A stretch of 33,010 nucleotides of DNA from Candidatus Ruthturnera sp. Lineage in GTDB: Bacteria > Pseudomonadota > Gammaproteobacteria > PS1 > Pseudothioglobaceae. This document shows positions 4,305 to 13,128 of this stretch, piece by piece. Position 1 is the stretch's first letter. Each line of letters starts with the position of its first letter. The translations under genes were made by a program, and so were the position numbers. The notes beneath the pieces are model-generated. The model made no database searches. It was not told the origin of the DNA and saw only the letters and a program-made list of their open reading frames with translations. The stretch spans positions 1,470 through 34,479 of the forward strand of contig JABGOT010000084.1 of NCBI GenBank assembly GCA_018648985.1. Direction: 5' to 3'.

Positions 4305-4700
4305 TTAATCCTTCCAGCTCTGCGTACAATCTAAAAAGAACCAGACGCGCTTCATGCCAGTATCACCACTCAGCATCAACTCTAACGGCGCTTTATGTTT
4401 AAATTTTTTGACTGGTCGTTTTAGCCAAATAGATGCGTATTCACGATTGGTCGGAAAGGTTGTACCCAACGACTCATGGATGCCTAAAATCATCTCACTG
4501 CGATTAATAGAAGTTTGGTTAAAATCAAAAGGCTTGTCGCCTCTTCTGTATAAATACAAATGTCTGGCTTTAATTGTTTCTGGCAAACCTAACAATGTAA
4601 TTTGATCTTGGTCGGCTAATTTCCATTGTTCCATAATCTGTGTCAACCGAACGGTAAGGTTGTTCTTTTGATCATCAGTAATGCTATCGAGATCTATCAT
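4305..4700 (-). CDS. Xre/MbcA/ParS-like (DUF2384-type) toxin-binding domain protein
   Basis: C-terminal ...LGTTFPTNREYASIWLKRPVKKFKHKAPLELMLSGDTGMKRVWFFL resembles the MbcA/ParS/Xre C-terminal domain (WL..P...F....PLELML.GD.G...V..FL); overlaps tolA end. Confidence 0.65.
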   Translation of the reverse strand: MIDLDSITDDQKNNLTVRLTQIMEQWKLADQDQITLLGLPETIKARHLYLYRRGDKPFDFNQTSINRSEMILGIHESLGTTFPTNREYASIWLKRPVKKFKHKAPLELMLSGDTGMKRVWFFLDCTQSWKD

Positions 4701-5560
4701 CAGTTCACCCTAAAATGAAACAAGATCTCACGATCGAATACGCTTTTATCTGGTGCAGGTGGCAATGGCGAGGCTTTGTATACTGCGCGCTCAATGGCAT
4801 CTTTAAAAGATTTTGACTTAGCGCCATTATCAACAACACAAGATTGGACATTTACACTTTGCACGTTACCATCAACATCTTGCAAGATATGAACATCACA
4901 TCCCCAGTTGTCTTTTGCACCTTGATAGCGCCACTGATTATGAACTCTAGAGGCGATTTGATTAATGTAATTAACCTTTAACTCATTTAAGATATCTTCT
5001 TGGGCGATTTCTCTATCTTGATCTTCTTCTGATTGAATTTCCTTTTTCAGCGCACGATTTTTTTGCTCTTTTTTAAACTTTTTATTTTCAGCTTTGCGTT
5101 GTTTTTCAATCTCTTGTTTTTTCTTTTCAGCAACTTTGGTTTTTTTCTCCGCTTCTTTGCGTTTCTTTTCCGCTACTGCTTTGGCTTTTTTCTCTTTTTG
5201 AGTTTTAGCTTTGAGTTGGTTGATTTTTCTTTGTTTTTGATAGCGTTGATCTTCTAACACTTTTAGGCGTTTTTCTTCACGCTGAATTTTTAACGCTTTG
5301 TTTTTTTGAATATCAACCAAGCGTTGTTTTTCTTTTTTAATTTCAGTTAGGTCAATCGTAACTGCTTTAGGGATGGACTTAGAAGCAGCTTTTTTAGGAG
5401 GCTCCTTGGGGATCTCCCAACGCTGAACATTAGAAAAAAATAAACCGATTATCAGTACAAGATGAAATACCACAGCCACCCAAAAAGCAATTGGATGGCT
5501 TTTAGCAATCTCAGGTAGTTTAACTTTTTTAATAAAATCTGTATTCATGCTACTTGGCAT
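4700..5560 (-). CDS. tolA: cell envelope integrity protein TolA
   Basis: N-terminal TM anchor, long Lys/Glu/Ala-rich helical region, C-terminal HNQWRYQGAKDNWGCDVHILQDVDGNVQSVNVQSC; adjacent to tolR. Confidence 0.9.
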   Translation of the reverse strand: MPSSMNTDFIKKVKLPEIAKSHPIAFWVAVVFHLVLIIGLFFSNVQRWEIPKEPPKKAASKSIPKAVTIDLTEIKKEKQRLVDIQKNKALKIQREEKRLKVLEDQRYQKQRKINQLKAKTQKEKKAKAVAEKKRKEAEKKTKVAEKKKQEIEKQRKAENKKFKKEQKNRALKKEIQSEEDQDREIAQEDILNELKVNYINQIASRVHNQWRYQGAKDNWGCDVHILQDVDGNVQSVNVQSCVVDNGAKSKSFKDAIERAVYKASPLPPAPDKSVFDREILFHFRVN

Positions 5561-6002
5561 CTGGTGATTCGGTCACAATACCGACTTTATCCACCCCGTT
5601 TTTTTGTAAGAAAGACATTAACGCAATGACCGAACCATAAGCAACTTCTCGGTCACCCCTGACAAAAACCTTCATCTGCGGGGAAAAACTCAATCTTGCT
5701 TGTACACGTGCGGCAATTCTACTAAGTGGTAAGCGTTCGCCTGAATCAACATCAGCACTTTCATCAGCCATTGAGTTAATAAAATACTCTCCAGCTCGGT
5801 TGATAGTGATAATAGTGGGCTGTTGCTCAGAAAAGTCAACCATTTTTGCCTCAGCAGCAGGTAGATCAACATCAATCCCTTGCTCGATAATAGGCGTGGT
5901 CATCATAAAGATTACCAATAGCACTAGCATTACGTCAATATAGGGAACAATATTGATTTGCGCATCGATAGCCGGTCTAGCGCGTTTTGGTAATTCAATC
6001 AT
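5550..6002 (-). CDS. tolR: TolR (ExbD family)
   Basis: INIVPYIDVMLVLLVIFMMTTPIIEQGIDVDLP; FVRGDREVAYG. Confidence 0.95.
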   Translation of the reverse strand: MIELPKRARPAIDAQINIVPYIDVMLVLLVIFMMTTPIIEQGIDVDLPAAEAKMVDFSEQQPTIITINRAGEYFINSMADESADVDSGERLPLSRIAARVQARLSFSPQMKVFVRGDREVAYGSVIALMSFLQKNGVDKVGIVTESPDAK

Positions 6003-6008
6003 TATTAA

Positions 6009-6677
6009 CTACTGTTGTCTCTGGAAAATAACAAATAATTCTTCAATAAAGGCGGTGTATTTATTGCCAATCGACTCTACTTGAGAAACTAAGCGATTGT
6101 AAGCAATGGTAGCTGGAATCGCAGCAAACAAACCAAACGCTGTCGCAATTAAAGCCTCAGCAATACCAGGCGCAACAATTGCGATAGTGGCTTGCTTAAC
6201 CGACGCTAGACCAATAAATGAATGCATAATTCCCCAAACGGTGCCAAATAAACCAATATACGGGCTAGATGACGCAATCATTGCCAATATGCTCAAACCA
6301 CCATCTAGACGATCAATTTCATTATTAGCAGTGGTGTTCATTGAACGGTAAGCACGTTCAGAATTCATAACAAGCGACTGATTAGAGGTTGACTTTGAGT
6401 GTGTAAACTCACCATAACCAGAGCCAAAAATATGCTCCATCGGTGTGCGGTCAGATACGATTTCAGGGATCTCAGTATGTAATTTGTCTAAATTTGTATC
6501 GGCTAAAAAGTGATTGTGAAAAACTTTAATATCGTTCTTAGCGTCCATTAAAGTTTTCTTTTTTGACAAGATCAGCGTCCAAGAATAAACACTCATTAAT
6601 ACCAAGATAAACATAACCACTTGCACCACAAAACCGGCGCTGAGGATTAGACTAATAATACTCAAACTGTTATCCAT
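6009..6677 (-). CDS. tolQ: TolQ (ExbB/MotA family)
   Basis: 222 aa; LSILAMIASSSPYIGLFGTVWGIMHSFIGLA...IAPGIAEALIATAFGLFAAIPATIAYN. Confidence 0.95.
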   Translation of the reverse strand: MDNSLSIISLILSAGFVVQVVMFILVLMSVYSWTLILSKKKTLMDAKNDIKVFHNHFLADTNLDKLHTEIPEIVSDRTPMEHIFGSGYGEFTHSKSTSNQSLVMNSERAYRSMNTTANNEIDRLDGGLSILAMIASSSPYIGLFGTVWGIMHSFIGLASVKQATIAIVAPGIAEALIATAFGLFAAIPATIAYNRLVSQVESIGNKYTAFIEELFVIFQRQQ

Positions 6678-8141: not shown

Positions 8142-8654
8142 TCATTTTAACTCATTAACCTCGTTAATCAATAGCTTGATTTTAATCGCCTTTGTTAAAT
8201 GATTAAGACGCACAATTTTAGGATAGTTCACTCCGTTAATTTGTTGATAACTGATGATTTTTACCTGCCACTCATCATCAACAGATTGCTTGTGTTGAAA
8301 CAAAATAGGTGCTAATCTTTGAATTGGAAAATACCAGCCAAATTCATCACTCATCCACTGCTCTAAATTGGATTCAATTATCTTGCCATCTATCCACAAA
8401 CCTTGAGTATTTGATTTAATGTCAATCTGCCCCAGCCCAAGTGAAGCACTAAGCTTAAGAGTGTAATCTTGATTTTTAGCATTAATAACAAAACCAATGT
8501 TTTGATTACGATTGTCCATTGACATGCCCACCCTACCCTGTGCTTGCCACTGTGTGGGAATTATTAGCGATGACGCAGGCTTTATAGGCTTGCTTTCAAG
8601 TGTGGCACAGCCTTGTAAAAACCACCCAAATAATAATATTACCATCCATTTCAT
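8142..8654 (-). CDS. lolB: outer membrane lipoprotein localisation factor LolB
   Basis: 170 aa; lipobox [14 protein letters not shown], divergent to hemA as in other gammaproteobacteria. Confidence 0.8.
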
Positions 8655-11880: not shown

Positions 11881-12294
11881 CTATTGGCAACTCTTACACA
11901 AGCCATATAAATATAAGCAGTGATCAGTTAATTCATAACCGTGCTTTGTAGCCACATCATGCTGATGTTGCTCAATAACATCATCCGAAAATTCATCAAT
12001 TTTTCCACATTTAACACAGACCAAATGATCATGATGCTCAGAATTAGACAGCTCAAACACAGATTGGCCATTATCAAAGTTGAGTTTATTAATCATGCCA
12101 GACTCTTCAAACTGAGTCAGCACACGGTAAATCGTTGCCACACCCACTTCTTCACCCTGCATTACCAAAGTACGGTAAATATCCTCCGCACTCATGTGGT
12201 GCTCTTCACTGGTTTCTAAAATTTCTAAAATTTTGAGTCGTGGCAGTGTGACTTTGAGTCCGGCACTTTTTAAATCTTGAGCATCCATATCCAA
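11881..12294 (-). CDS. fur: ferric uptake regulator family protein (Fur)
   Basis: LKSAGLKVTLPRLKILEILE, HHMSAEDIYRTL, GVATIYRVLTQFEESGM, HHDHLVCVKCGKIDEFSDD. Confidence 0.92.
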   Translation of the reverse strand: MDMDAQDLKSAGLKVTLPRLKILEILETSEEHHMSAEDIYRTLVMQGEEVGVATIYRVLTQFEESGMINKLNFDNGQSVFELSNSEHHDHLVCVKCGKIDEFSDDVIEQHQHDVATKHGYELTDHCLYLYGLCKSCQ

Positions 12295-12351: not shown

Positions 12352-13128
12352 ATGAATAAATTAACTTTGATTGTATTGTCATTACCATTCTTATCTGCGT
12401 GTTCACCTTCAATGCCAGAACTACCAGATTTACCAAGCTTGCCAAGCATGTCAGATATCGTTCCTACACCTTATAAAGCTGATATTTACCAAGGCTCTGT
12501 ATTAGAGCGCTTTAAAATCAACCAGCTTAAAGTTGGCATGTCTAAAGCACAAGTAAAAGACCTAATCGGCTCACCCAGTGTGATTGACCCATTTCATAAC
12601 AACCAATGGGATTATATTAACTACTCCACCCCTGGTGTAGGAAATGTTATTCATTATCGCTTAATACTTGCTTTTGATCATAACACCCTTACTAAAGTCG
12701 ACACCACAGGTATCGGCTCTTTGCCACAGCTTACTGATGAAGAAAAAGCCTTAGAGGATAAACGCATTGCTGAGGAAAAAGCCAGAGCGGAGGCGGCAGC
12801 TAAAGCTAAAGCAGAGGCGGAAAGAATCGCTAAAGAGAAGGCAATTGCAGCCGCTAAGGCTAAAGCAGAAGCCGAGAGAATTGCTAAAGAAAAAGCAGCG
12901 GCAAAAGCCAAAGCACTAGAAAACAAACGCATTGCTGAAGAAAAAGCCAAAGTAGCAGCGGCGGCAAAAGCTAAAGCTGAAAAAATTGCTAAAGAAAAAG
13001 AAGAAGCCAAGGCCAAGGCCAAAGCTTTAGAAGATAAACGCATTGCTGAAGAAAAAGCCAAAGCAGCGGCGGCGGCAGAAGCTAAACGCATTGAAGAGGC
13101 AAACAAGCCTTGGTATAAATTCTGGTAG
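12352..13128 (+). CDS. bamE: outer membrane assembly lipoprotein BamE (SmpA/OmlA) with long Ala/Lys/Glu-rich C-terminal extension
   Basis: Start set at 12352 (MNKLTLIVLSLPFLSAC signal/lipobox) rather than ORF-track 12277. VYQGSVL-like IYQGSVLERFKINQLKVGMSKAQVKDLIGSPSVIDPFHNNQWDYINY is BamE; ~130-aa KAKAEAERIAKEKA-type tail follows. Confidence 0.9.
   Translation: MNKLTLIVLSLPFLSACSPSMPELPDLPSLPSMSDIVPTPYKADIYQGSVLERFKINQLKVGMSKAQVKDLIGSPSVIDPFHNNQWDYINYSTPGVGNVIHYRLILAFDHNTLTKVDTTGIGSLPQLTDEEKALEDKRIAEEKARAEAAAKAKAEAERIAKEKAIAAAKAKAEAERIAKEKAAAKAKALENKRIAEEKAKVAAAAKAKAEKIAKEKEEAKAKAKALEDKRIAEEKAKAAAAAEAKRIEEANKPWYKFW

Follow-up and report, generated by a model that had tools for sequence, protein, structure and literature searches.

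What might the outer-membrane Bam complex gain from a BamE lipoprotein with a long C-terminal tail? The question is raised by a gene at positions 12352–13128 (+) of the window, the whole stretch of 33,010 nt analysed here, whose 258 aa product was characterized by translation, Pfam, a structure model and Foldseek. As judged from its sequence, the protein is a true BamE lipoprotein (BamE/OmlA), because a Pfam search, a fold search and a divergent fur neighbour all point that way. The BamE (SmpA/OmlA) domain, PF04355, spans residues 48–115 (12493–12696, +) with an E value of 4.9e-18 and a score of 65.1 bits (cut-off 23.2), and the predicted fold agrees; the best Foldseek matches are all BamE chains of E. 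coli BAM complexes (7tt0_E, E 1.9e-07, target TM 0.76). The gene on the other side of the intergenic region (11881–12294, −) is fur (NCBIfam NF006999, 198 bits, cut-off 146), giving the fur–omlA/bamE arrangement. The protein is assigned to the Pfam family PF04355 and not to the narrower NCBIfam equivalog NF008585, which is the top BamE match there yet at 48.3 bits lies below its cut-off of 93. BamE is the sole Pfam domain above cut-off in the window protein, which is without a LysM or OmpA_C domain. The N-terminal region carries a lipobox, L-S-A-C (Cys17; 12391–12402, +), read from the sequence, with Ser at +2; Cys17 is unchanged across 27 aligned BamEs and the LSAC-S sequence, where +2 is not Asp, is fitting for a putative outer-membrane lipoprotein. 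BamD and BamC are both encoded in Thioglobaceae genomes, BamC in 49 of 50. The domain boundaries set by the profile search leave a tail of residues 129–258, as the original prediction had it.

This tail is genuine. Between the window's genome (G000) and the closest relative with the same tail (G003), it differs by seven synonymous changes and one non-synonymous change, where random change would be expected to yield about 248 : 854 synonymous to non-synonymous, i.e. approximately 3.4 to 1 in favour of the latter, and for this reason the tail is taken to be real coding sequence under purifying selection. An annotation or assembly error joining BamE to a second ORF could be imagined in a source genome that is a fragmented MAG (161 contigs, 79.8 % complete), but many independent genomes, drawn from several genera, have the same uninterrupted ORF, and one of these genomes, G028, is a single contig. 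A fusion created by a frameshift or assembly artefact, which the original prediction had named as the danger to its own case, was examined and is ruled out by these orthologues; we give the error explanation virtually no credence.

AlphaFold2, supplied with a shallow alignment of 27 sequences, predicts the BamE fold followed by a single unbroken helix over residues 129–250 (12736–13101, +), with pLDDT mostly 84–93. This Ala/Glu/Lys rod of approximately 122 residues would measure about 18 nm at 1.5 Å per residue; the single helix first proposed from the letters alone is thus retained, with its extent trimmed from some 130 residues and 19 nm. Pairs of residues at i and i+4 in the rod comprise 28 of opposite charge and four of like charge (z = 4.3), a pattern typical of the single alpha-helix type. 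A classical heptad coiled coil was considered and rejected, as the rod has 12 larger hydrophobic residues in 124 and no clear heptad. At the C-terminal end pLDDT drops to about 65 and the tip is predicted to be disordered, as expected of a docking peptide when unbound. At the DNA level, the 24 nt sequence AAACGCATTGCTGARGAAAAAGCC is present in exactly three copies, at 12760, 12925 and 13036 (0 expected in shuffles), and both Tandem Repeats Finder (period 111, 2.1 copies) and a repeat search identify a tandem duplication of a 111 nt (37 aa) unit at 12858–13086 (+), so the earlier claim of a three-copy repeat and growth by internal duplication is borne out. The idea that the tail originated recently by copying of the neighbouring tolA gene has in its favour only one 60 nt match (75 %, E 1.8e-6), which shared Lys and Ala codons could explain.

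The last residues of the window protein, PWYKFW (13108–13125, +), place a PWY[KQ]FW motif at the exact C-terminus. Most long Thioglobaceae BamE tails end in PWY[KQR]FW, in some cases with LD or MD after it, and no part of the tail is better conserved, the linker sequence diverging greatly among relatives. The motif terminates BamE in 8 of 11 genera (g1, g2, g4, g5, g6, g7, g8 and g10), a count that ignores kinship and in which many of the genomes are MAGs; the BamE of G022 ends in WYKF. The linker leading to the motif is 102–131 residues long in 15 of 17 full-length BamEs, the outliers being 17 residues (G014) and 158 residues (G004), whereas the ten BamEs without the motif have 1–57 residues after the domain. 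Because the lengths are bimodal in this way, rod and tip are, on the sequences compared, coupled, and rod length is fairly constant. No long tail is found in g3, g11, most of the sampled g2 genomes and part of g5, and it is consequently dispensable; when presence and length were checked across relatives, the tail nevertheless proved recurrent in many Thioglobaceae. Scanning 83 family genomes for W-Y-x-F-W-stop gave, among the matches inspected, 19 that are BamE loci or unmistakable fragments of BamE tails, five small periplasmic rhodanese proteins (the rhodanese domain being tested in two of the five) and one secreted-protein fragment, besides short frames. The rhodanese proteins (L031, L039, L041, L048 and L060) have signal peptides and end in KPWY[KQ]FW like BamE, and the fragment (L052, L143; G001:C53), possibly an ABC substrate-binding protein, ends in TTKPWYQFW. 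On the Wimley–White scale, the free energy for moving the tip to a membrane interface comes to about −4.3 kcal/mol.

One relative, G023, carries a variant of this architecture, and it is the only one in which a LysM domain was seen in BamE. A single ORF fragment contains the end of BamE, a coil, a LysM domain (PF01476, E 2.2e-11, residues 112–154), a further coil and the terminus KKPWYQFW, and on a second contig the start of BamE continues into a slightly different LysM copy. The two copies (L038:3-764, G023:C80; and L027, G023:C67) perhaps represent two strains in one MAG. In G000, a search for LysM gave matches only in a different ORF, on contig C100. A LysM domain inside the rod fits a link to peptidoglycan. 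Literature searches for the motif string or for a BamE with LysM found nothing relevant.

The tail had been likened to domain II of TolA, and the window itself encodes the Tol proteins about 7 kb from bamE: a canonical tolA of 286 aa (4700–5560, −; TIGR02794, 73 bits, above cut-off), together with a tolR-like ORF (5550–6002, −) and a tolQ-like ORF (6009–6677, −), both assigned by eye from ORF and sequence. Of 50 family genomes, 46 yield a TolA match, which is above cut-off in 37, and the TolA rod region in the same genomes (129–164 aa) is comparable to the BamE linker. The analogy therefore holds for rod length but does not extend to substitution for TolA; the notion that the tail replaces a missing TolA or BamC was rejected since both are present in the family, and the window BamE does not show the combination of an N-terminal inner-membrane helix and a C-terminal domain III that defines TolA. 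Across genera, BamE linker length and TolA rod length are uncorrelated (rho −0.23, P 0.56, n 9); in G004 both are longer. TolA rod lengths differ mostly by steps of seven (129, 143, 157 and 164; window 4700–5560 and loci L378–L397), the spacing that a heptad coiled coil would give, and the BamE rods are without such steps. Some 4 kb from bamE, a LolB-like lipoprotein (8142–8654, −; assigned by eye) is flanked by ruvB-like and hemA-like ORFs.

Elsewhere in the class, sampled at about one genome per family, BamE extensions take other forms. Canonical BamE had been described as short, which holds for many, but among 70 BamEs of other families the extension after the domain is at least 50 aa in 25 and at least 100 aa in five. 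Amphipathic-looking hydrophobic segments occur in 26 of these 70 tails against a mean of 10.8 in shuffled tails. Given the frequency of such extensions and the excess over shuffles, BamE extensions are a general theme, of which the helical rod with PWYKFW is, in the sequences sampled, the Thioglobaceae form; no PWYKFW-type end, and no helical tail with such an end, was seen in the 70 BamEs inspected. A very degenerate class-wide version of the motif pattern was dropped because chance matches swamped it.

The motif itself is not confined to BamE. When 85,462 species genomes were scanned for PWY[KQ]FW-stop, with counts that are lower bounds, at least 117 matches were found, and at least 102 of these terminate ORFs 60 codons or more in length. 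Of the 102 ORF-terminal matches listed, 42 are BamD homologues from beta-, alpha- and gammaproteobacteria, as counted with an HMM and not by BLAST clustering, which merged unlike proteins. The other matches listed comprise Thioglobaceae BamE, cyclophilin-like marine archaeal proteins, a DivIC-like Parcubacterial protein and a miscellany. The cyclophilin-like proteins (by eye) are from Poseidoniales and end in PWY[QK]FW (L065, L067, L069, L133 and other marine archaeal loci); the Parcubacterial DivIC/FtsB-like septum protein (L165:1847-2221) ends in RPWYKFW; and two Rhodospirillales BamDs (L107 and L154) have, ahead of the terminal copy, a second motif of variant sequence (SPWYAIW, APWFKFW). 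Neisseria BamD, which is part of solved BAM complexes, ends in PWWRYW. None of 15 readable Thioglobaceae BamDs has the motif, their ends being ..SYPLYTPHYSLED-like. In the class-wide sample, two or more Trp residues are found within the last 12 residues of 10 of 90 BamDs versus 17 of 468 background ORFs (Fisher P 0.006, indicative only, as the criterion was chosen after the BamD ends had been seen). In an AlphaFold monomer model of BamD the motif is not packed on BamD, and the end has pLDDT 31–54. Since it ends rhodanese proteins within the family and BamD elsewhere, the tip is a transferable end. The suggestion that the aromatic end could serve as a docking motif has fared well; conserved in the family and common to BamD and a periplasmic rhodanese, it behaves as such a motif would.

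Because the PWYKFW tip also ends BamD in other bacteria, the rod and tip of SUP05/Thioglobus BamE suggest a tether from the Bam complex to another part of the envelope. Our working hypothesis, to which we assign a probability of about 0.42, is that a rod bearing a portable aromatic docking motif links Bam to peptidoglycan or the inner membrane. The lipid and the BamE domain would fix the base of the structure at BamA/BamD in the outer-membrane Bam complex; the rigid helix would project from the BamE domain through the peptidoglycan layer; and the tip would engage a membrane interface or a protein deeper in the envelope, for example at the inner-membrane face. In one lineage the inserted LysM domain would engage peptidoglycan directly, and the tether would keep Bam close to the cell wall or to inner-membrane export sites. 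That the motif binds a partner, which partner this is, and that the rod spans the periplasm, we infer. The tether is the simplest reading because it joins the rod, its constant length, the LysM variant and the portable tip; in its favour, long rod and tip co-occur, the motif is kept while the linker diverges, and the tail is under purifying selection. The fuller proposition that an undescribed relocatable motif, PW[YW]xFW, borne by BamD in many proteobacteria, has moved to the tip of a Thioglobaceae BamE rod and made of it a trans-envelope tether we consider unlikely as a whole.

The strongest facts against the tether are the G014 linker and the parallel with BamD; the tail's dispensability in several clades and the lack of correlation between BamE linker and TolA rod lengths also weigh against it. 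With only 17 residues between domain and motif, the G014 protein is too short to leave the outer-membrane side, and where BamD bears this motif, its position is presumably close to the outer membrane, for which reasons the partner of the tip may sit at that membrane. Both facts fit docking near the outer membrane: PWYKFW would be a Bam-complex motif with BamA, BamD or the outer membrane's inner leaflet as its binding site, transferred from BamD to BamE in Thioglobaceae, with the helix lying along the membrane or bending back to stabilize the complex. The BamD share of the motif matches, its absence from Thioglobaceae BamDs, the Neisseria terminus and the Trp-rich BamD ends all count for this alternative, which is nonetheless somewhat unlikely in our estimate, as it leaves unexplained the long helical linkers of 15 of the 17 BamEs, the LysM insertion and the motif on a soluble periplasmic rhodanese, and the motif is unpacked in the BamD model. 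The original idea of a link from Bam to peptidoglycan or the inner membrane thus gains from the TolA-like length and the LysM domain of G023, but its inner-membrane reach is weakened by observations pointing nearer the outer membrane. BamD participates in substrate recognition, and an aromatic C-terminus with Y-K-F within it, or ending WYKF as in G022, resembles the beta-signal (Y-x-F) of outer-membrane proteins; the tip might accordingly act as a pseudo-substrate that tunes assembly or stress signalling by filling a substrate or PDZ site in Bam, SurA or DegS. Nearly all ends, however, are F-W-COOH or F-W-(L/M)-D and not Y-x-F-COOH, and it is hard to see why a rhodanese should mimic an outer-membrane protein, which makes this improbable. 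We regard it as improbable to the same degree that the tail is a product of slippage-driven expansion and shrinkage with little function: the repeats in the rod, different duplications in other lineages and tails that are short or missing in several clades are what slippage would leave, but purifying selection, bimodal length and a conserved end are not. The motif may also be only generically sticky, which would count against the tether, as among the matches listed it ends unrelated proteins, some of them apparently cytosolic.

The tether hypothesis bears on how the activity of Bam is coordinated with the wall and with export at the inner membrane: a BamE that has its own rod and aromatic tip, plus the LysM domain of one relative, would, if the hypothesis is true, be a built-in link; the tip common to BamD and BamE offers a six-residue testable target. 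Mature peptidoglycan inhibits BAM (review, PMC13067283). In Caulobacter, Bam is anchored to peptidoglycan by Pal, a lipoprotein module (PMC2797634), and the Neisseria BAM complex contains RmpM (PMC6288298). The role proposed here, that of holding Bam to the wall, is shared with these, but Pal and RmpM are separate OmpA-domain proteins, whereas the putative tether is built into BamE, and only one relative has LysM. TolA domain II is likewise a charged helical rod, and in the same genomes its length is similar, but TolA is anchored in the inner membrane and has domain III, whereas the window BamE is a predicted outer-membrane lipoprotein with a peptide tip. BamDs of Polaromonas, Rhodospirillales, Woeseia and Neisseria share an identical or near-identical aromatic C-terminus (PWYKFW/PWWRYW), usually after a short linker past the TPRs, whereas in the window BamE it follows a long helix. 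The protein resembles BamE/OmlA/SmpA of E. coli, P. aeruginosa and N. gonorrhoeae in being a lipoprotein, in its BamE domain and fold and in the adjoining fur gene; E. coli BamE, however, stops shortly past the domain, extensions of 50–230 aa with amphipathic F/L/W-rich segments are present in some other gammaproteobacterial BamEs, and the window BamE adds a 122-residue helix and PWYKFW.
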